Positions 30,096-39,438 of a DNA stretch of 64,000 nt are shown in pieces. The DNA is from Fuscovulum ytuae. GTDB lineage: Bacteria > Pseudomonadota > Alphaproteobacteria > Rhodobacterales > Rhodobacteraceae. Position 1 is the first letter of the stretch, and each line of letters begins with the position of its first letter. The stretch is taken from the NCBI RefSeq assembly GCF_029953595.1, contig NZ_CP124535.1, positions 558,001 to 622,000 on the forward strand, in the 5' to 3' direction. The notes under the pieces are model-generated. The model did not search any database. It saw nothing but the letters and a program-made list of their open reading frames with translations, and was not told the origin of the DNA. Both the position numbers and the translations under genes were made by a program.

Positions 30096-31343
30096 CTATA
30101 CGGTGGCAAGGCGGCGCGCGGAGAGCCAGCTTGCCAAGGCCATCAGTCCCGCAGTGGTCAGGCAAAGCGGCAGGCCCCCGATCTGATAGCTCAGCCCCGA
30201 CAACAACGTCCCAATCAGCCGCCCAGCCGCATTGGCCATGTAGTAAAAGCCCACATCCCGCGTGATCCGTTCTGCCGTCCCATAGGCGAGGATGAGATAG
30301 GAATGGACAGAGGAATTGATCGCGAAAACAAATCCGAAGAGCAAAAGTCCACCGATCAGCAGCGCTGTGAGCCATGGGGCAGGAGCCGCGGCCGCCCAAG
30401 CCGCTGCTGCAAGAATAAAGGGGATCGGCACCAGCAGACCCGCCCAAAAGATCGCCTTGCGGGTTGTTTCCGCCTCGGACTGATTGCGGCTTCCCAGCAA
30501 ACGCGGCGCAGCGGCCTGGACGGCACCATAAGCGATGATCCAGAGGGCAAGGAAACCGCCGATCAGGAAAAAGGCCTCTCGCCGTCCTTCGCCCGTGCCG
30601 TCGGAGAGAACGGCCTGAAAATAGACCGGGATACCCACGACGAACCACACATCGCGCGCGCCGAAAAGGAAAAGGCGGGCAAGGCTAAGCCGGTTCACCC
30701 GCGCGTCTCGTGAACGCCAGCCGGACCAGCCATCTTCGCCCTTCATCCGGCCGGGAAGGCCTTTTGGTAGGAACAGGAGGACCGCGATCAGGATGGCTGT
30801 CAGAACGCCTGCCATCCCCCAAACCGCCGCTTGAAATCCTGCAAAGGCCAGAAGAGCCGCGCCAAGGAAGAAGCCTAGGCCCTTGACCGCATTCTTTGAT
30901 CCCGTCAGCGCGGCGACCCAGCGGAACAGGCCTCCGTCCTCCTTTGGGGCAAGAAGTTTGACGGCGGACTTCGAGGACATCTTCGCCAGATCTTTGGCCA
31001 CGCCAGAAACGCCCTGAACGGCCATGACGAAGGCGACAGAGGCTGGAATGGACCATCCAGGATCGAGTTGGGCCAGCGCAACCAGCGCACCGATCTGCAA
31101 GGCAAGGCCGCTATAAAGCGTGGCCGCCAGGCCAAAGCGCGCGGCCAGCCACCCGGCGGCGAGGTTGGTGACCATCCCTGCCACCTCATAAAGCAGAAAG
31201 AGCCAAGCAAGTTGCAACGGCGTGAAACCGAGGCTGTTGAAATGGAGAAGCACCAGCATCCGCAAGGCCCCGTCCGACAGCATGAAGGCCCAATAGGCTG
31301 CGGTTACGGCGGCATAGGCGCGGATCGGATTCGGAACGGTCAT
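30096..31343 (-). CDS. arsJ: ArsJ, organoarsenical (1-arseno-3-phosphoglycerate) efflux MFS transporter
   Basis: A 415-residue major facilitator protein with about 12 helices. From the chosen ATG it begins MTVPNPIRAYAAVTAAYWAFMLSDGALRM, the ArsJ N-terminus. The ArsJ identity is supported by GVSGVAKDLAKMSSKSAVKLL and by the GAPDH and arsR-arsC fusion genes directly upstream. In the characterised pathway GAPDH makes 1-arseno-3-phosphoglycerate from arsenate and ArsJ expels it, after which it decays to arsenate outside. A longer frame upstream runs through a dispersed repeat and is not coding. Confidence 0.93.
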   Translation of the reverse strand: MTVPNPIRAYAAVTAAYWAFMLSDGALRMLVLLHFNSLGFTPLQLAWLFLLYEVAGMVTNLAAGWLAARFGLAATLYSGLALQIGALVALAQLDPGWSIPASVAFVMAVQGVSGVAKDLAKMSSKSAVKLLAPKEDGGLFRWVAALTGSKNAVKGLGFFLGAALLAFAGFQAAVWGMAGVLTAILIAVLLFLPKGLPGRMKGEDGWSGWRSRDARVNRLSLARLFLFGARDVWFVVGIPVYFQAVLSDGTGEGRREAFFLIGGFLALWIIAYGAVQAAAPRLLGSRNQSEAETTRKAIFWAGLLVPIPFILAAAAWAAAAPAPWLTALLIGGLLLFGFVFAINSSVHSYLILAYGTAERITRDVGFYYMANAAGRLIGTLLSGLSYQIGGLPLCLTTAGLMALASWLSARRLATV

Positions 31344-31373
31344 CGTTGCGGCCTTTGGCTGCGGCTGGACCGG

Positions 31374-31425
31374 GGGCGCTTCGGCGCCCGGACCCCCCGA
31401 GGATATTTGAAGACAGAGAATGATC
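31374..31425 (+). repeat. Dispersed repeat family GAGGATATTT, copy C
   Basis: A GGGCGC/GCGCCC stem closed by a TTCG tetraloop is followed by CCCCCCGAGGATATTTGAAG and an ACAGAGAATGATC tail. It lies between arsJ and the GAPDH gene and overlaps the GAPDH stop, on the strand opposite to both genes. The tail is nearly identical to copy D at 47012. Confidence 0.65.
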
Positions 31426-32431
31426 AGAGCTGTGCGGCCACCATGCGGGCGATATCCGCCAAGCGGCAGGCATAGCCCCATTCATTGTCATACCAGGCAT
31501 AGACCTTCACCTGCGTACCGTTGATCACCATTGTGGAAGGCGCGTCGACGATCGCGGAGCGTGGGTCGTTGGTGAAGTCGCAAGACACGAGGGGGCGCGT
31601 CTCATAGCCGAGAATGCCTTTGAGTGGCCCCTCGGCAGCTGTGGCGAAGAGGGTGTTCACCTCTTCCACCGTGGTTTCGCGCGCGACCTCGAACACGCAA
31701 TCTGTGAGGGAGGCATTCAGAAGGGGCACGCGGACGGCATGGCCGTTCAGGCGCCCTTTCAGTTCTGGATAAATCAGGGTGATGGCTGTTGCCGATCCGG
31801 TCGTCGTCGGGATCAGGTTCATCAGGGCCGAGCGTGCGCGGCGCATGTCCTTGGCCGGGCGGTCGACGATGGTTTGGGTGTTCGTGACGTCATGGATCGT
31901 GGTGATGGACCCATGACGGATACCGATATTTTCATGGATCACCTTGACCACCGGGGCGAGGCAGTTCGTGGTGCAAGAGGCCGCCGTCACAAGGTTTTGC
32001 GAGCCGTCGTAAAGGTGATGGTTCACCCCATAGACAAGATTGAGCGCGCCGCCATCCTTGACCGGGGCCGAGACCACGACCGTCTTTACCCCTGCCGCAT
32101 AGTAGGGGGCCACCTTGGCCGCAGTCTTGAAAACGCCGGTGCAATCAATGACCAAGTCGATACCCATCTGCGCGAGGGGAAGCGCCTCGATGGTCTTTTC
32201 GTGGGTCAGGCGTATCGCTTGACCATTCAACACAAGCGCGTCTTCGCCTGCGGTGACCGGCGTTCGCCAGCGACCATGGACGCTGTCGAATTCCAAAAGG
32301 AGCGCGTGCTGTGCGGCGTCGGCCATCGGGTCGTTCAACAGCACGACGTCACCTGTCAGACCTTCATCGATCAAGTTGCGCAAGACGAGTTTTCCGATGC
32401 GGCCAAGGCCGTTCAGGGCAATGCGGGGCAT
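31424..32431 (-). CDS. gap: ArsJ-associated glyceraldehyde-3-phosphate dehydrogenase
   Basis: A 335-residue GAPDH-fold enzyme. The NAD site starts LNGLGRIGKLVLRNL, the catalytic cysteine is in ASCTTNCLAPV, and the family end KVYAWYDNEWGYACRLADI is intact. Location between the arsR-arsC fusion and arsJ marks it as the arsenic-operon paralogue. It would use arsenate instead of phosphate with glyceraldehyde-3-phosphate to make 1-arseno-3-phosphoglycerate for ArsJ. The housekeeping copy is presumably elsewhere. It begins seven bases after the fusion gene. Confidence 0.93.
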   Translation of the reverse strand: MPRIALNGLGRIGKLVLRNLIDEGLTGDVVLLNDPMADAAQHALLLEFDSVHGRWRTPVTAGEDALVLNGQAIRLTHEKTIEALPLAQMGIDLVIDCTGVFKTAAKVAPYYAAGVKTVVVSAPVKDGGALNLVYGVNHHLYDGSQNLVTAASCTTNCLAPVVKVIHENIGIRHGSITTIHDVTNTQTIVDRPAKDMRRARSALMNLIPTTTGSATAITLIYPELKGRLNGHAVRVPLLNASLTDCVFEVARETTVEEVNTLFATAAEGPLKGILGYETRPLVSCDFTNDPRSAIVDAPSTMVINGTQVKVYAWYDNEWGYACRLADIARMVAAQL

Positions 32432-32437
32432 GATGGA

Positions 32438-33277
32438 TCAGGCTTTCGCTTCGGCGTCGCTGCCGATGGCATCGACTCTGGATTGGAGGGACAGGCGGCT
32501 GAGGCTTTCGACGGGCAGTTCAACGAAGGCCACGATCCGCCGGCGCAGGGCGGCATAGGTCTGGGCAAAGACCAGTGCCCGGGCGGCGTCGGTTCCCGTA
32601 GCCTTGACGGGGTCGGGAAGGCCCCAATGGCCGGTGATCGGCTGGCCATGCCAAGGGGGGCATTCTTCAGCTGCGGCTGTGTCGCAGACGGTGAAAACGA
32701 AGTCCATCTGCGGCGACCCGGTTTGTTGGAATTCCGAGATGTGCTTGGATCGCAGCCCATCGACAGAATGGCCATTGCGGCGCAGTACCTCGATCGCAAC
32801 GGGATTCAAGGTGGTGTTGGGGCGCGTCCCTGCGGAATAGGCGTTGAACCGACCCCGGCCCAGATCGCGCAGCAAGGCCTCGGCAAAGACTGAGCGGGCC
32901 GAATTGCCAGAACAGATGAAGAGGACGGCGAAGGGCGCCTGACGCATAGTGGGCTCCTGGAATGTTGGGAGGAGGGGAGAGAGCAGGTCCGGTCGACCCC
33001 GTCCGACATCAAGCGCGATATAGCCGATCAGCTGTTCGGCAAAATCGAGATCGACGGAGTAGATCAGGGATCGTCCATCGCGCACCACGCGGATCAGCTG
33101 GCAGGCCAAAAGGTCGGCCAAGTGGTGGGACAGCGTGTTCTGCTTGATTTGCAGGGCCTCTGCGATTTCGGTCGGGCGCACGCCTTTCGGGGCAAAGCGC
33201 ATCAGAAGGCGGAACACTGCCAATCGGCCAGTGTGGCCGAGTGCGGCAAAGGCGATGGCGGCTTGGACATTTTCCAT
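32438..33277 (-). CDS. ArsR-ArsC fusion: arsenic-responsive repressor joined to arsenate reductase
   Basis: Two domains share one 279-residue chain. Residues 1-100 form an ArsR-family winged helix (EIAEALQIKQNTLSHHLADL as recognition region). From about residue 113 a low-molecular-weight phosphatase-type arsenate reductase follows, with the CX5R loop FICSGNSARS (C122, R128) and the acid DPVKATG. The usual ArsR cysteine pair is not obvious; Cys59 in the winged helix and the reductase cysteines are candidates for arsenite contact. It is the first gene of the ars operon and its start codon lies on a palindromic operator. Confidence 0.93.
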   Translation of the reverse strand: MENVQAAIAFAALGHTGRLAVFRLLMRFAPKGVRPTEIAEALQIKQNTLSHHLADLLACQLIRVVRDGRSLIYSVDLDFAEQLIGYIALDVGRGRPDLLSPLLPTFQEPTMRQAPFAVLFICSGNSARSVFAEALLRDLGRGRFNAYSAGTRPNTTLNPVAIEVLRRNGHSVDGLRSKHISEFQQTGSPQMDFVFTVCDTAAAEECPPWHGQPITGHWGLPDPVKATGTDAARALVFAQTYAALRRRIVAFVELPVESLSRLSLQSRVDAIGSDAEAKA

Positions 33278-33299: not shown

Positions 33300-33499
33300 C
33301 CTGGCGCCTCAAATGAAGGTTTCATGACAATTATGGTGCGCGGCAACCTTTCCCCGGCCTGGCCCGTCTTGTTGTCGTGCACTGCTGTTGGGTTTTAAGG
33401 GTGAGCTTGTGCAAGAAGTTCGTATGCACGCGCCTTCGGAGGGCTACTTACTGGCCTAAGCGTTCCGGCACGCTGCCAGAGGCGGTGACCAGATGGCCA

Positions 33500-33524
33500 A
33501 AAGCACCCAAGCCTTGGGTGCTTT
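33500..33524 (-). terminator. Presumed original tRNA-Asn terminator, displaced by the island
   Basis: AAAGCACCCAA and TTGGGTGCTTT form an 11-pair perfect stem with a three-base loop; on the minus strand it ends in GCTTTTGG. It lies 27 bases left of the left attachment site. If the island were removed, it would stand just after the tRNA-Asn 3' end, in the correct orientation for that gene. Confidence 0.7.
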
Positions 33525-33550
33525 GTTTAAAATCAAGGGCTTAGGGGATC

Positions 33551-33567
33551 TTGGCTCCGGCGGTAGG
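33551..33567. repeat. Left attachment site (attL) of the tRNA-Asn island
   Basis: TTGGCTCCGGCGGTAGG, identical to the 17 bases at the other end of the island, which are the last bases of the tRNA-Asn gene and the base following it. Confidence 0.88.
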
Positions 33568-33748
33568 CGACTAGGGGTCGAAGTATCCTGCAGCCTGTTC
33601 GGATTTACCTTTGATTATCAAGCGTTTGCTGGGGTGCGTGGTAAGCAGTCTAGTTGCGGTGTGTGTCTGGTGGGTTGCGATTGTGTGCCTAGCATGAAGG
33701 AAACGGCGAGACATGCCAAATGCCATTCGCACGGGGCAAGGACGATGG

Positions 33749-34480
33749 TTATGCTACGGGGCGGCTCTCAAGCCATAGCTCATCGTAGGCAGCGGCTTTC
33801 AGCTTTGCGAGTTCCACGTCTGCACGAGTAACCGACGCGGGCGACTTCTTCGCTATGTCTTTCAGGGACTGCGACACGAGCCAAGCATCGTTCCCGTCAA
33901 CAATGATCAACCGATCATGAAGACGCCCTGATGGCGCAAGCCTTGTCTCGACGTCTGGTGTTGTTCGGTCCTTAGTTCCATTCCACTTATTGGATGCGGC
34001 GACCAAGGCAGGCAGAAGCGGTGGCTGTCGTGCGGTTAAAAGGCGGATGGACTGACTTGCCACCATGTGCGGCACGAGGTCCAAGAACACACTCGCATCC
34101 ATGTAGGGGTCGACGATGAAGAGGGATTTGCACTCACGCTGAACAATCTGAACGAGTGCGGCGTAGCCGTTCCAAGTGTCGCCTGCACGAATGAACGCCC
34201 CCTGAAGCTCGGCGGGAACAAGTAGTTCAAGGTGGCTGAGTGCGTCAAACAACGGCTGCATGAGCGAGTTGCGGTCGTGTCGGATGGTGCCGAGGTTCTC
34301 CCTAGCTACACGAAACGACACGACTTGGTTGACCTGCCCGAAAGCAGACAGCAATGCGTCCGCCCTGCCAAGCCACCTAGCTTCGGTTTCGCCGAGCCGT
34401 TCGCCAGAAGGGAGGGCTGGTGCGTCACGCACCAAGCCTTGGAGCATCAGCAGTAGTTGTTCAGGTGGAAGGCTGCTCAT
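33749..34480 (-). CDS. PLD-like domain protein, island cargo, unknown function
   Basis: The 243-residue product has an N-terminal helical region. A C-terminal phospholipase D-like half-domain follows, with FIVDPYMDASVFLDLVP, IRLLTAR, and the active-site-like HDRLIIVDGNDAWLVSQSLKD. The normal HxK motif reads H-D-R, so catalysis is uncertain; the SLKD segment is typical of PLD-like proteins found on mobile elements. The chosen ATG has CCGGAA upstream; an adjacent ATG one codon earlier is equally possible. It is divergent from the ParB-like gene. A role in defence or plasmid/phage interference is only a suggestion. Confidence 0.65.
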   Translation of the reverse strand: MSSLPPEQLLLMLQGLVRDAPALPSGERLGETEARWLGRADALLSAFGQVNQVVSFRVARENLGTIRHDRNSLMQPLFDALSHLELLVPAELQGAFIRAGDTWNGYAALVQIVQRECKSLFIVDPYMDASVFLDLVPHMVASQSIRLLTARQPPLLPALVAASNKWNGTKDRTTPDVETRLAPSGRLHDRLIIVDGNDAWLVSQSLKDIAKKSPASVTRADVELAKLKAAAYDELWLESRPVA

Positions 34481-34666
34481 CATTTCCGGACACTGGCTTG
34501 GATGGTGGACGCAAGTCAATTAGCTGGGTGGGTAGTGGTGTTGGGGGCCACCATTAGAAGAGCGGGATGAACGCTGAAGCCCCTAGCGTGAGCTGCGGCT
34601 TGCCTATGCAAGCCTTGGTGGGTGCAGGTGCATACCCTGCTGACATCCAAAAACATCGGTAACCAT

Positions 34667-35437
34667 ATGACAAACAAAAAGAATGACGGGCTTCCACGCC
34701 CAGCGCCGCGTATGGTGCGAATTGACCGTGTTCTGACGGACGAAGACACGTTTCAGCCCCGAGGCGGAGGGCTGAACGAAGCGCATGTAGCCGCTCTGCA
34801 GGATGTATTGCGGCAGGGTGGCCAGCTAGACCCTCTGTGCCTATGGGAAGACCCTGCCACGGGCGCTCTGACCGTCGCTGATGGGCATCATCGGCTTGAG
34901 GCATACCTTCGGCACGGTAAGGCCAAGAACATCCCTGCAAGCATCTACCGCTGCGACAGGAGAACCGCGCTCCTAATCCCCATACAGGACAACGCCAAGG
35001 CTCGGCTTCCGCTGCAATACAATGACCGTGCCAACTGGGCATGGAAGCTGACTGTCGAAGGGGCGCAGTCCAAGGCCACGGTGGTTGCATCCTGTGGGGT
35101 CAGCGACGGCACAGTCGCACACATGCGGCGGGTATGGAGGGAGCTGCAGGCAAAGGGTGAGGATGCCCCCAAGACATGGTGGGAGGCGCAGAAGCTGAAC
35201 AAGAGTGAAGAGGATCGGGAATGGTCTGATCAAGAGCGTGACGAGTGGCGGCAAGGGCTGGTGCAGAAGGCGCATCGCAGCTTCGGGGCAGAGCTGGCGG
35301 ACCTCATGAAGCGATCACCAGAGGCAGCGGCGGAGCTGCTGGACCTTTGTGGTGGGCGGCAACTGGAAAGCGTGATGGACCACCTCGGTTACGTTCTGGC
35401 GGATGAGGAAAGTGAGGAAGGCGACTGTCCCTTCTGA
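34667..35437 (+). CDS. ParB/sulfiredoxin-like N-terminal domain protein
   Basis: A 256-residue cytoplasmic protein. Residues about 15-80 form a ParB/Srx fold with LNEAHVAALQDVLRQGGQ and the motif TVADGHHRLEAYLRHG, which corresponds to the nucleotide-binding loop of ParB-like proteins. A middle helical part (SKATVVASCGVSDGTVAHM) resembles a helix-turn-helix. The acidic end DEESEEGDCPF is unlike its neighbours. There is no ParA gene, so a simple partition role is unlikely. The ribosome site before the ATG is weak. A GGCTTGC/GCAAGCC hairpin lies 50 bases upstream. Confidence 0.7.
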   Translation: MTNKKNDGLPRPAPRMVRIDRVLTDEDTFQPRGGGLNEAHVAALQDVLRQGGQLDPLCLWEDPATGALTVADGHHRLEAYLRHGKAKNIPASIYRCDRRTALLIPIQDNAKARLPLQYNDRANWAWKLTVEGAQSKATVVASCGVSDGTVAHMRRVWRELQAKGEDAPKTWWEAQKLNKSEEDREWSDQERDEWRQGLVQKAHRSFGAELADLMKRSPEAAAELLDLCGGRQLESVMDHLGYVLADEESEEGDCPF

Positions 35438-35549
35438 CTGCGGTTCACCCGAGGATGTTTTTGGGGCAAATTTGCGAGTGGCTTGCCAATAGTTGCGGTT
35501 CGCGATTTCTCCCCCGTGGCAGTCAAGCATTCGCGGAGACGAACCTAGG

Positions 35550-35918
35550 CTACCAGCGGCACGATCCATAGTTCTGAGAAGGTGAAAGGACGCTGCCAGC
35601 GATAATCGTGTGGCGACTATGAACAGCTGCCCCGCCGTCTGTGACGGTTGTTGTTTGGATGGCTCCAGATGCGAGTCTTTCTACGAATGTCGTTGCGCTT
35701 TCACCGCGAAGAACGGCGACTGCAGCCACACCATTGTTCCCACGAAGGAAAGCCTCGCCACTAACGGTGTCAACGACGAAGGTCATTTCGAAGTCTTGCT
35801 TTGCTATGCCTTCGTCAGTCGCCCTCATCGGGAAACTGCATGTGAACTCAAGGGTTTCAGCCGAAACGGAAGTCGAAGTAACGGTTAGAAGCAAGCAGGC
35901 CGACCAAGCAATTCGCAT
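35550..35918 (-). CDS. Small exported protein of unknown function
   Basis: From the ATG preceded by GAGGTG the product is 122 residues. A signal peptide (MRIAWSACLLLTVTSTSVSA) is followed by ETLEFTCSF and a beta-rich body ending in SCRW, with two cysteines that could form a disulfide. I recognise no family. A longer reading frame upstream would place the signal peptide internally and is rejected. The gene is convergent with the ParB-like gene and divergent from the serine recombinase. Confidence 0.6.
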   Translation of the reverse strand: MRIAWSACLLLTVTSTSVSAETLEFTCSFPMRATDEGIAKQDFEMTFVVDTVSGEAFLRGNNGVAAVAVLRGESATTFVERLASGAIQTTTVTDGGAAVHSRHTIIAGSVLSPSQNYGSCRW

Positions 35919-36008
35919 GTTTTGCACCTCAACTCTTGGGGGCGTCCATCGCCTCTTTGTGGACCTTTGCGATCCACGCTTCAACCCGCCGAAATCCTTG
36001 GTGGCGGA

Positions 36009-36065
36009 GTGACACATTAGAGTATACCCTAGCGCATCACCGCGATGTGACACTTTTTGTGTCCC
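36009..36065. promoter_or_regulatory. Candidate recombination/operator region upstream of the serine recombinase
   Basis: GTGACAC occurs at 36009 and again at 36047, and an inverted GTGTCCC at 36059. Between them TAGAGTATACCCTA is a near-palindrome centred on GTATAC. The clustering of short direct and inverted repeats before a resolvase-type gene resembles a res site or an autoregulatory operator. Confidence 0.4.
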
Positions 36066-36132
36066 ATTAGGGTTGACTTCGATATTTCAGGACAGTATCC
36101 GATCAGGGTCTAGAGCCAAAAAGGACACCTCG

Positions 36133-36690
36133 ATGAGATACGGTTACGCCCGCGTCAGCACCGACGATCAAGACCTTACCCTTCAGCGGGAGAAACTGCT
36201 TGCTGCAGGCTGTAACGTGGTCAGAGAAGAGAAGCGCAGCGGCACGAAGCTGACAGGGCGCGACGAACTGAAGACCCTGCTTGAGTTCATGCGTGAGGGT
36301 GACACACTGGTCGTAACTCGATTGGATCGGCTGGCACGCTCCCTTGAGGATTTGTCGTCCATAGCTCGACAGCTTCAGGCGAAGGGCGTTTCCCTTATGG
36401 CGACTGAGCAACCTGTGGACACCAGCAACGCGGCTGGAAAAGCGTTCTTCCAGATGCTGGGGGTGTTCGCTGAGTTCGAGACCAACCTCCGCAGGGAGCG
36501 GCAGATGGAGGGTATAGCCAAGGCCAAAGCCAATGGCGTCTACAAGGGGCGCAAGGCTTCTATCGACCCAGCAGAAGTGCAGCGCCTGCATGATGTCGAG
36601 GGGCTGGGAGCCACTGAGATCGCCCGCAAGCTGGGCATCGCTCGGACCTCTGTCTATCGGGTCTTGGAGGGCAAGGCAGCGACGACCTAA
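36133..36690 (+). CDS. Serine recombinase (resolvase/invertase family)
   Basis: The 185-residue protein has the catalytic domain first: MRYGYARVSTDDQDLTLQ with the nucleophilic serine in RVSTDDQ, then REGDTLVVTRLDRLARSL and the FAEFETNLRRERQMEGIA segment. A long E-helix follows, then a C-terminal helix-turn-helix (GLGATEIARKLGIARTSVYRVL). This is the size and layout of Tn3-type resolvases and Hin/Gin invertases. AAAGGA lies eight bases before the ATG. It may resolve island dimers or be left over from a transposon; no transposase is present. Confidence 0.93.
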   Translation: MRYGYARVSTDDQDLTLQREKLLAAGCNVVREEKRSGTKLTGRDELKTLLEFMREGDTLVVTRLDRLARSLEDLSSIARQLQAKGVSLMATEQPVDTSNAAGKAFFQMLGVFAEFETNLRRERQMEGIAKAKANGVYKGRKASIDPAEVQRLHDVEGLGATEIARKLGIARTSVYRVLEGKAATT

Positions 36691-36733
36691 GTTCAACTTA
36701 GTCCTATCTTCTTCGTTCAGGCGCTGGCCATAC

Positions 36734-36758
36734 CCTTCAAAGTTTGAAGGCTTTTTTC
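36734..36758 (+). terminator. Intrinsic terminator of the serine recombinase gene
   Basis: CCTTCAAA and TTTGAAGG pair around a single G and are followed by CTTTTTTC. It lies 43 bases after the recombinase stop. Confidence 0.9.
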
Positions 36759-36846
36759 GTCGGGCAGAAGGGGGCGCACAGAGGCCCCCAGAAGGGGGCT
36801 TCCGCTTGTTGGGAGGGGCAAAGGGTCGGGCTACAGGAAGGGCGCT

Positions 36847-38292
36847 CTAGAGGGCTTCTGCTGCGTTCTCCGTTGGCTCTGCGTCCGTCCCTGCCTTCTT
36901 CGGGTCGGTCAGACCGAAGGCTTTCAGCATCGCTCTCGTAGTGACCCGGAGCTTCGCGGGTGTTCCACCGTAGACACGATCACCGACGCCCCCAAGTTCA
37001 TGTCCAAGGATCAGGTTCTGGTCCATGGAAGACACCTCCGCCACCATCAAGCGGTCCTTCATGTTGTGCCGCAGGGAATGGACAACGTGCTTGGGGTTGT
37101 TGGTCACGGCACGAAGGTGGCTCATCAACGCGGCAGAGGCTGCGTCTGACCCTCTGGGGCGGCAGTAGGACGGGAACACGAGGTTACCCTTTCGCGTGGT
37201 CTTAAGAGCTTCCTTGGCCGCGTCTAGGGCATCTCCTACCAACGGCACGTAGCGACGGGAAGCGGCAGTCTTCAACCTCCGCTGCTCGTGCCATGTGACG
37301 CGGATGCTGGGAAACTCACCCGCCACGTCAACATCTTCGACCCTGAGGCCAGTGACTTCCGCAAGGCGGCAGCCTGTTCCTTCCAGTAAGCGCCACACCA
37401 AGGCTAGCTCCGCAGTGCAGCGGGTGGTGATCCTAGCCCGCGCACTCTGCAGAACGTCTTCCGGCAGTGGGTCGCGCTCTTCCCACGTGTCTCGCCTGCC
37501 CTTGGCCCCTTGTATCTTAAGCCCGCTGAAGGGGTTCTTGAATGTCGCGGGCAGCGGCATTTCCTGTGCAGCGTGGTTGATCACTGCATTGAGCGAGTTG
37601 AGGTCGCGGGCAACTGAACTGGGGCTGATCGGCTTTCCATTACCCTTCAGCCGCTGAAGCATGAAGTCTCTCACGGTGCGGGCATCGTCACGCGTCAGCT
37701 TCACCAAGACAGGGTCTTTGCCCAGCGCCTCGACCACCAATCCCGCCACCCGCTCTACCTGCTGCTTGAAGCGGTCGCGCAGTTCAGGGGCTTCTGTCTG
37801 GTCGCGCTCAGCAAGGTAAAAGCTCATCGCGTCTCGCAGGGTTGCCTTGGGTGGCTTGGCCTCGCCCGCACTTTGGAGGATGCCGATTGTGAAGGCATCC
37901 AGCTTGGTGGGGTGGAGCGGGTAGCCAGTCTCGTCATCGCGGGGATAGCGGTCGACTATCTCCTGAGCCAGATGGTCTCTTCCGTCCCAATCCGTGCTGA
38001 GCATCCCCATCTCCACTGCCCGCTGATAGGCGAGTTTGTAAAGCTGAAGCTCCGAGAGTTCCCCGCGTTCTGCGGCGGCAGCTTTGTCGGCTGACTGCCT
38101 CGCAACCGCTATCTCACGCTCCACCTTGGCGTGAAAGCCGGGATAAGCAGCCAAGGCTTCCCGCTCGGTGTCCCCGAGCTTTCCCTTGAACTCGCGCTTC
38201 AGGATTACAGAGGAGAGGTCTTTCGGCACTCGGCGGCGATACTGCCAGCCGCCTGCTTTGGTCTTCTCAACGTAGCGCAAAACTAGCCTCAT
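36847..38292 (-). CDS. int: Tyrosine-type site-specific integrase
   Basis: A 481-residue phage/island integrase. The N-terminal region (MRLVLRYVEKTKAGGWQYRRRVPKDL) is of the type found in alphaproteobacterial tRNA-targeting integrases. A SAM-like core-binding domain follows. The catalytic domain has the first Arg in LLEGTGCRLAEVTGL, a Lys-containing strand in RRLKTAASRRYVPL, the HSLRHNMKDRL box, the LGHELGG histidine, and the tyrosine in DRVYGGTP. GAGG lies before the ATG. It is transcribed away from tRNA-Asn, with 86 bases between them, as expected for an integrase inserted at attR. Confidence 0.95.
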   Translation of the reverse strand: MRLVLRYVEKTKAGGWQYRRRVPKDLSSVILKREFKGKLGDTEREALAAYPGFHAKVEREIAVARQSADKAAAAERGELSELQLYKLAYQRAVEMGMLSTDWDGRDHLAQEIVDRYPRDDETGYPLHPTKLDAFTIGILQSAGEAKPPKATLRDAMSFYLAERDQTEAPELRDRFKQQVERVAGLVVEALGKDPVLVKLTRDDARTVRDFMLQRLKGNGKPISPSSVARDLNSLNAVINHAAQEMPLPATFKNPFSGLKIQGAKGRRDTWEERDPLPEDVLQSARARITTRCTAELALVWRLLEGTGCRLAEVTGLRVEDVDVAGEFPSIRVTWHEQRRLKTAASRRYVPLVGDALDAAKEALKTTRKGNLVFPSYCRPRGSDAASAALMSHLRAVTNNPKHVVHSLRHNMKDRLMVAEVSSMDQNLILGHELGGVGDRVYGGTPAKLRVTTRAMLKAFGLTDPKKAGTDAEPTENAAEAL

Positions 38293-38377
38293 GTGTGCCT
38301 CGTGTGTGCCAAGACGCGCACCGAGATCGACCTCACGTAGCTGTTTTTCTTGATTTTTCTAGGTTTCCCGAAGGAAA

Positions 38378-38394
38378 TTGGCTCCGGCGGTAGG
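38378..38394. repeat. Right attachment site (attR) within tRNA-Asn
   Basis: The same 17-base TTGGCTCCGGCGGTAGG as attL; here it is the 3' end of the intact tRNA-Asn gene, so the tRNA is regenerated by the insertion. Confidence 0.88.
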
Positions 38395-38453
38395 GATCGA
38401 ACCTACGACCAATTGATTAACAGTCAACTGCTCTACCGCTGAGCTACGCCGGA
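38379..38453 (-). tRNA. tRNA-Asn (anticodon GTT)
   Basis: The 75-base gene folds into a standard cloverleaf. The acceptor arms are TCCGGCG and CGCCGGA with discriminator G and an encoded CCA. The D arm contains AGCTCAGCGGTAGAGC, the anticodon loop reads CTGTTAA (anticodon at 38419-38421), and the T arm has GGTTCGATCC. It is the integration target of the adjacent island. Confidence 0.96.
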
Positions 38454-38523
38454 ACACGGGGGCCGTATAGCAAGGGTGCATCTGGGGGACAAGGGGGGAA
38501 TGGTGGAAAAGTTTTGCATCCTG

Positions 38524-39438
38524 TCAGGCAAGGTGGAAGAGGTTGTTCGCAGTCAGGGGATGGTCGGTGTGAACGTGACTTTTGCCATGCAGATCAATCA
38601 GGTGCGCTAGGACGTTTCGCGTTGCGGCGGGCTTTAGATTGGGGGCGAGATCGGGGTAGAGGCTGTGCGCGATTTGCGCGGCCGTTTGGGGGGCCTGTGC
38701 CAGCGCGTCCAGGATTTGTGCCTCGCGCGCGCGACGATGTGTGATCAACTCTTGCACGCGCCGTTGCGGATGGGGGATCGGATCTCCATGGCCGGGCAGG
38801 AACTGTTGCCAATCGGGGCGATCGAGGCGGGCGAGGCTGTTCATGTAATCGCCCATGTCGCCATCCGGGGGGGCGACGATGCTCGTGCTCCATCCCATGA
38901 CATGGTCGCCAGATAGAAGAACCTCACCCAAGCAGAAGCAAAGATGCGTGCCAAGATGGCCAGGCGTGTGAAGGGATGTCACCTCCCAATCCGGGCCGGA
39001 AATCCTTTCGCCATCTGCGAGGTTGCGATCGGGCGCGAAAGATGTGTCGAGACCGTCTCCCCCGCCAGTCGGCCTTTGCGCGGCAAGGGCCGCCATGCGC
39101 GGGTTACGCCCCTCGTCAGCACGTCCGAAGGCAAGAACGGGTGCCCCCGTTTGGGCCGAGAGCCGGGACGCGAGGGCGGAATGGTCGCGATGGGGGTGGG
39201 TGATGAGGATCTGCTCCACAATTTCGCCGGGGTCGAGGGCGGCAAGGATCGCAGCAATATGACCGTCATCGTCAGGCCCGGGGTCCACAACAGCAACCCG
39301 GCCGGATCCGATGATATAGGTATTCGTCCCGCGAAAGGTGAGCGGTGATGGATTAGGGGCAAGCAAGCAGCGCAGGCGCGGGACGCGCGGTTGGGGCGAT
39401 CCTTGTGGCGCAGGCGATAGCGTCAGTTGGGGCGGCAA
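38524..39438 (-). CDS. MBL-fold metallo-hydrolase (LACTB2/glyoxalase-like)
   Basis: The 304-residue protein has the metallo-beta-lactamase fold: GTNTYIIGSG, metal motif THPHRDHSA, further ligands in HTPGHLGTH and GDHVMGW, and a terminal PGHGDPI. A C-terminal winged-helix-like segment with LYPDLAPNLKPAATRNVLAHL follows. I start at a TTG that has GAGGAGG eight bases upstream. An ATG at 39492 would instead overlap the start codon of the divergent kinase and has no visible ribosome site. Substrate unknown; ribonuclease or thioester hydrolysis are family possibilities. Confidence 0.82.
   Translation of the reverse strand: MPPQLTLSPAPQGSPQPRVPRLRCLLAPNPSPLTFRGTNTYIIGSGRVAVVDPGPDDDGHIAAILAALDPGEIVEQILITHPHRDHSALASRLSAQTGAPVLAFGRADEGRNPRMAALAAQRPTGGGDGLDTSFAPDRNLADGERISGPDWEVTSLHTPGHLGTHLCFCLGEVLLSGDHVMGWSTSIVAPPDGDMGDYMNSLARLDRPDWQQFLPGHGDPIPHPQRRVQELITHRRAREAQILDALAQAPQTAAQIAHSLYPDLAPNLKPAATRNVLAHLIDLHGKSHVHTDHPLTANNLFHLA

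Follow-up and report, generated by a model that had tools for sequence, protein, structure and literature searches.

In Fuscovulum ytuae, a 4.8-kb island occupies the 3' flank of a tRNA-Asn gene within the 64,000-nucleotide stretch analysed here (contig NZ_CP124535.1, positions 558,001 to 622,000; hereafter the window), and it is best explained, with a probability of about 0.9 on sequence grounds, as an integrative island that inserted at the tRNA end. The insertion is supported by an intact tRNA, matching repeats at the two borders, an empty site in a relative, the use of the same core by independent islands, and a lambda-like attachment site (attP). Beyond the left border stands a hairpin that is likely the original terminator of tRNA-Asn. 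In window coordinates, the elements concerned are the following:

38379-38453, minus strand: tRNA-Asn(GTT), predicted by ARAGORN and identical in alignment to the gene of the same-genus relative G010.
38378-38394, minus strand: core of attL, formed by the 3' end of the intact tRNA-Asn (exact repeat, ARAGORN).
33551-33567, minus strand: attR, the displaced 17-bp copy of the tRNA-Asn 3' end (exact repeat; its 16-bp core also bounds the islands L117, L120, L121, and L169).
36847-38292, minus strand: tyrosine integrase of 481 amino acids, open frame (Phage_integrase E 8.5e-11; phrog_1 E 1e-34).
33500-33524, minus strand: hairpin displaced past the left end of the island, likely the terminator of tRNA-Asn before the insertion (folding, G010 alignment).
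38464-38492, minus strand: candidate tRNA-Asn promoter found by eye, TTGTCC and TATACG separated by 17 bp, both hexamers kept in G010.

Both copies of the direct repeat are exact over 17 bp and consist of the last 16 bases of tRNA-Asn plus one flanking base. When up to three mismatches were allowed, these were the only two matches in the window, where chance predicts a mean of 0.32 and two such matches were reached by 4 of 100 shuffles. In the 4.185-Mb genome, the 17-mer occurs exactly at these two places, without a third copy, which bears out the repeat reported at 33551 and 38378 in a preliminary description of this DNA. Because the 17-mer is absent elsewhere, this is probably the only tRNA-Asn gene of the genome, in which tRNA typing covered 30 of the 43 tRNAs. 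The G+C content is 58.4% in the island and 62.1% in the window.

The window flanks were joined by script and then aligned with G010 (75-81% DNA identity in this region), in which the counterpart of window positions 33529-33567 is joined directly to tRNA-Asn. This is the empty site that the preliminary description had proposed to look for in related genomes lacking the island. The tRNA is identical in the two sequences, and the stretch upstream of it is kept, including, as judged by eye, the TTGTCC/TATACG pair, which a consensus scan missed; about 23 bases after the tRNA are closely similar, with two substitutions and a one-base gap, and a hairpin then follows in both. The preliminary description had counted a relative with the same gene order and no island as a refutation, a rule that has to be inverted, as such a relative confirms the insertion. 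Gene order to the left of the site is only partly kept: in G010, the site and arsR are separated by roughly 3.7 kb of additional DNA, and in G008 arsenic genes are missing from this place, with about 700 bp between tRNA-Asn and the flanking matched gene.

The tRNA-Asn flank was matched in 16 of the 18 same-genus genomes searched; one of the 16 was excluded as only 7 bp were present. In the 15 testable relatives, no integrase related to our panel, which misses other integrase families, was found within 1-1.5 kb after tRNA-Asn. Three of them (G002, G013, and G007) have apparent integrases of other families after tRNA-Asn, those of G002 and G013 matching DUF6538-type N-termini below the Pfam cut-off and that of G007 being recognised by eye only. 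The tRNA-Asn site looks like an insertion hotspot in the genus.

The integrase frame opens 86 bp past tRNA-Asn and reads in the same direction, so that a tyrosine integrase does adjoin the tRNA as had been noted earlier. Its residues R309, K341, R408, H431, and Y441, which we take to be catalytic, are invariant in a five-sequence alignment (A1). A scan with the integrase alignment retrieved 77 loci, and the addition of the window and a single viral contig brought the number examined to 79; by record title, nearly all of the 77 are of Rhodobacteraceae type and Rhizobiales type, and L188 is labelled an Alteromonadaceae metagenome-assembled genome. A same-strand tRNA lies just upstream of the integrase in 70 of the 79 loci (Leu 36, Asn 14, Thr 10, Gly 5, Phe 4, Ser 1), at a distance of 81-110 bp in 50 of the 70 and of 149-690 bp in the other 20, at least some of these long gaps being matches that miss the integrase N-terminus. 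The first seven relatives listed, L115-L121 (56-63% identity, E 1e-157 or better), are all at tRNA-Asn; L122 (55%) has no tRNA nearby, and L130 (57% over the best segment) is at tRNA-Gly. Where the far repeat was found among the Asn islands (L117, L120, L121, and L169), it has the 16-bp core CCTACCGCCGGAGCCA in common with the window, and the recurrence of this core in four other islands with related integrases lends independent support to the attachment sites first assigned.

Sequence was covered up to 8 kb past each integrase match, leaving larger islands unbounded, and the far repeat was taken as the first place with the longest exact match, for which repeats of 14-15 bp may be due to chance in single cases. 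Of the 30 islands with a repeat of at least 14 bp, 26 were kept as bounded after L146, L165, L184, and L186 had been set aside; they span 4.7-9.4 kb, and the window island is the second smallest. In viral contigs, the integrase alone gave no confirmed match and the integrase alignment gave one relative, L192. Phage records contained only distant integrases (30 records, one covering at least 80% of the query, all below 60% identity), as did plasmid records (12 records, none covering 80%, all below 60% identity). A further integrase, that of G206 (L070, 51% identity), is interrupted by two in-frame stops, and its locus shows no tRNA, which suggests a decayed island.

Read from its sequence, the attP layout of the window island is lambda-like, with three arm repeats (one diverged) between tRNA and integrase, two at the far end, and a site resembling that of integration host factor (IHF):

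38293-38322, minus strand: P' arm-type repeats, GTGTGCC on the plus strand at 38293-38299 and 38304-38310, with a diverged copy at 38316-38322 (sequence, family comparison).
33660-33689, minus strand: P arm-type repeats at the left end, on the plus strand TGTGTGTCT at 33660-33668 and GTGTGCC at 33683-33689 (sequence, family comparison).
33616-33628, plus strand: IHF-like site TATCAAGCGTTTG at the left end, the only match in the island to the IHF consensus, with three matches in the whole window over both strands.

The attP of lambda is composed of a P-arm, a core, and a P'-arm, with tandem P' repeats. The window island resembles it in having arm-type repeats on both sides, an IHF-like site, and tandem P' repeats, and differs in that the core lies in a tRNA end and that an arm repeat, the one at 38293-38299, abuts the start codon of the integrase. 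Tandem repeats between tRNA and integrase are found throughout the family, reading GGCACAC in the window and GGTACAC, GGGACAC, or CTGCTAC in others, and the last of them lies near or abuts the integrase start. In 21 of the 26 bounded islands, the island's own arm motif is found again in the 170 bp next to the far repeat, with a mean of 1.19 per 170-bp tail against 0.05 per 170 bp of island interior. A T-rich tract after the small post-tRNA hairpin was considered as proof of a terminator and rejected, since it may belong to an IHF-type site beside the core.

As regards position alone, the hairpin at 33500-33524 stands directly after tRNA-Asn in the empty site and beyond the left end of the island in the window. 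On the tRNA strand, its 11 pairs and 3-base loop give a folding energy of -15.4 kcal/mol, a value reached by 6 of 200 shuffles. Between the hairpin and the displaced copy of the tRNA end, 27 bases were counted, which agrees with the distance that the preliminary description had predicted after excision. The stem letters are GCACCCAAG/CTTGGGTGC in the window and GCACCC/GGGTGC in G010; different letters with pairing kept are expected of a functional stem and hence of a kept terminator, here in a single comparison. A very similar hairpin, AAAGCC...GGCTTT (AAAGCCACCG...CGGTGGCTTT), follows the tRNA-Met (L216) of the same genome. The hairpin is likely to be the original tRNA-Asn terminator.

In addition to the integrase, the island carries the following features:

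36133-36690, plus strand: serine recombinase of resolvase/invertase type, 185 amino acids (Resolvase E 1.5e-41; phrog_125 E 9.9e-63).
36060-36094, plus strand: candidate res subsite upstream of the serine recombinase, its pattern also found upstream of the genes of five other relatives.
34664-35437, plus strand: ParB-like protein (phrog_1033 E 1.1e-12).
33749-34519, minus strand: cargo protein, 256 amino acids, similar to PDC-S05, a candidate model for phage defence, and to the N-terminal domain of VPA1262.
35550-35918, minus strand: small open reading frame (ORF) with a signal-peptide-like start by eye and no family match.

The serine recombinase has a resolvase domain and a helix-turn-helix (PF00239, PF02796). 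An ORF of its single-linkage cluster is present in 24 of the 26 bounded islands, all 24 with an RxS(T/S) motif whose serine is presumably catalytic, and direct tblastn with the window protein found it in 20 of the 26. The ParB-like protein occurs in 9 of the 26 by cluster and 8 by direct tblastn. Residues 105-230 of the cargo protein match PDC-S05 of PADLOC (E 4.3e-11), and its match to the VPA1262 N-terminal domain in NCBIfam (E 1.2e-8) is below the cut-off; an anti-phage role is possible. Relatives of all four proteins, the integrase in two overlapping frames, are found in the G031 island at tRNA-Leu. Repeated motifs resembling res subsites lie upstream of serine recombinase genes. A pattern written post hoc, after these motifs had been viewed, matches 6 of the 20 genes with at least 44% identity, where mononucleotide shuffles predict 0.08, and none of 16 more distant ones.

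Around the site, an arsenic operon at window positions 30096-33277, encoding a fused ArsR/arsenate-reductase-like protein, an ArsJ-associated GAPDH, and ArsJ, is common to the window and G010. The extra 3.7 kb or so of G010 (L063, 2913-6508) holds a histidine-kinase-like gene and an SH3-like gene, both recognised by eye and absent from the window. The island of G013 at the same tRNA-Asn (L224, 2259-7787 from the tRNA end) encodes BREX-like proteins, as judged by eye, and that of G235 at tRNA-Asn (L087, 1712-3463) encodes a 583-amino-acid protein with a weak match to DarT (E 1.8e-4) beside a companion gene without a match.

To account for this arrangement, we propose that the integrase recombined the island's own attP with the last 16-17 bp of tRNA-Asn, in which case the tRNA would have been restored by the copy of these 16-17 bp that the island brought. 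Transcripts of tRNA-Asn would now continue through the 86-bp attachment arm into the integrase gene and be trimmed to the tRNA by processing, and this read-through could give low integrase expression, damped by bound integrase. The displaced hairpin may now halt transcripts leaving the cargo gene of the island ahead of the same-strand arsenic operon, and the serine recombinase would resolve dimers or tandem copies at the res site upstream of its own gene. That read-through from tRNA-Asn is the main source of integrase is a tentative part of this proposal, given slightly less than an even chance, and it is preferred because neither a promoter nor a T-run terminator was found in the spacer between tRNA and integrase by two scans that are weak tests.

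Terminator displacement appears to recur in the island family, because the stretch past the far repeat contains stronger hairpins than does the spacer from tRNA to integrase. In the 26 islands, the best hairpin of the 80 bases beyond the far repeat (the displaced host side) averages -12.6 kcal/mol and that of the 80 bases after the tRNA (the island side) -9.1 kcal/mol (Wilcoxon p 0.001), and hairpins matched by at most 1 of 30 shuffles are found on the displaced side in 11 islands and on the island side in 3; the p value is optimistic, as the islands are not independent and four of the 11 (L127, L131, L132, and L142) have near-identical displaced sequence. Island-side hairpins are often formed by arm repeats, and of the 51 non-redundant spacers of the family, just 3 contain a hairpin that folds at -8 kcal/mol or lower and has a T-run behind it. 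The 30 nt next to the tRNA are enriched for small hairpins, whose sequences differ widely (mean z -1.26; p<0.05 in 27% of the 51), the mean z farther along the spacers being between -0.67 and +0.19; this analysis left out L165, L190, and L191 of the 70 loci, 51 of the 67 kept being non-redundant. The notion that other elements bring a terminator and this family does not was rejected: a hairpin of that strength with a T-run is found in 3 of 17 other-family spacers and 3 of 51 family spacers (p 0.07), and the three of 17, G002, G013, and G007, had been noticed before testing, with none of the remaining 14 qualifying.

The dependence among islands is one of several points that weigh against displacement and read-through. 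The best hairpins after the 30 genome tRNAs examined, tRNA-Asn included, average -12.8 kcal/mol, and only 9 of the 30, tRNA-Asn among them (8 of the 29 others), have a downstream hairpin that beats shuffles; as 21 of 30 have none, the lack of a clear hairpin after a tRNA is nothing uncommon in this genome, and a displaced terminator need not matter. After the stem of the displaced hairpin, which itself ends in TTT, the tRNA strand reads TGGCC, a short T-run; the opposite strand has a better one (GTTT), and a simple terminator scan listed the hairpin on neither strand. The 11-pair hairpin of the preliminary description thus stands in its pairs, fold, and position, but its terminator-like character is weakened. 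The T-runs would suit a hairpin that never served the tRNA, being an unrelated intergenic inverted repeat or part of the arsR side; we regard this as improbable, given that G010 has a hairpin of other letters at an equal distance after an identical tRNA, that no recognised plus-strand gene ends at the hairpin, and that tRNA-Met is followed by so similar a structure. It is also rather improbable that tRNA-Asn is ended by a replacement terminator borne by the island, either the small hairpin after the CCA (ATTTCCTTCGGGAAA in the window) or the arm-repeat hairpin. In its favour, small hairpins are enriched across the family, and the other integrase-like genes that G002, G013, and G007 carry after this tRNA-Asn are preceded by strong hairpins. 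The window arm repeats can likewise form a hairpin of -11.6 kcal/mol immediately ahead of the integrase start, a value matched by 2 of 30 shuffles in the family comparison and by 1 of 30 in the genome tRNA comparison. The arm-repeat hairpin, however, lacks a T-run, as does the post-CCA hairpin, which reaches only -3.9 kcal/mol (z -0.32); the T-rich tract of some members may be part of the IHF site, and the comparison of 17 with 51 spacers gave the p of 0.07 already mentioned, with its three strong cases seen beforehand.

Read-through as the integrase source has its own competitor, to which we likewise give somewhat under an even chance: the integrase gene may have a promoter of its own within the attachment arm, which bound integrase would repress in the manner of KplE1 intS, with read-through from tRNA-Asn negligible. 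Integrases of KplE1 type have their own promoter inside attL, and the family spacers may do likewise. In PMC2951348, the tested integrases lying after a tRNA on the same strand are repressed by their own product, at attL-overlapping promoters for KplE1 intS and others, and negative autoregulation in E. coli was measured for intS, intC, and intL (tRNA-first, same strand) and for intF (divergent). An arm repeat abutting the integrase start codon fits such control, and in some tRNA-Leu and tRNA-Thr members TTGAAG or TTGAGG followed by a TATATC-like block can be seen by eye. This block is absent from the window spacer, and a simple scan of 33300-38700 found no promoter-like site, which is a weak test in this bacterial group. 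As to mobility, that the island is an immobile remnant seems unlikely. Its rank as second smallest of the bounded islands would suit a remnant, as would the failure to recognise an excisionase in the five ORFs tested, a point that also weighs against the main proposal. On the other side, its repeats are perfect, the integrase and the serine recombinase both have open frames, and neither attachment arm is missing.

Among the titles and abstract starts of open-licence PubMed Central (PMC) articles, nothing was found on island-displaced tRNA terminators or on this island family, nor was a name for it found in that literature. No phage structural, packaging, or capsid-remodelling gene was recognised with Pfam and PHROGs among the five island ORFs, the scan being confined to these and not to smaller ones. 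Integrative and mobilizable elements are likewise small, integrated at tRNAs, and variable in cargo, but the five ORFs gave no relaxase match in Pfam. The small serine recombinase with repeated inverted motifs upstream recalls the resolvase/res modules of the Tn3 family, unlike which the five ORFs gave no transposase match in Pfam. A bolder and rather doubtful proposal is that of an unnamed alphaproteobacterial family of 5-9-kb 'two-recombinase' islands, in which a tyrosine integrase would insert at tRNA 3' ends, terminator displacement would switch on integrase read-through only while the island is integrated, and serine recombinase and res would collapse the tandem copies expected to accumulate without them, since the tRNA site is restored at each insertion.

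The closest known system is KplE1 (CPS-53) at argW, of the 'STI' class, in which, according to PMC2951348, the integrase directly follows the tRNA 3' end on the same strand, the core is 16 bp, and integrase arm sites lie between tRNA and integrase; the tRNA-first, same-strand order is given there for 736 of 1273 tRNA-integrase pairs. The window island differs from KplE1 in its 86-bp spacer, its serine recombinase and ParB-like gene, and in that no TorI-like excisionase was recognised. The preliminary description holds up both in its facts and in its principal interpretation. The island is a well-preserved member of this widespread and known kind of tRNA-then-integrase elements, to which the present analysis adds the empty site, the attP anatomy, a family with a second recombinase, and apparently recurring terminator displacement. 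With its empty-site relative, it offers an unusually clean case for the fate of transcription of a probably single-copy tRNA gene once an element takes its 3' flank. It also points to a family of very small islands in which a tyrosine integrase is paired with a serine recombinase, a pairing whose purpose is testable with few genes.

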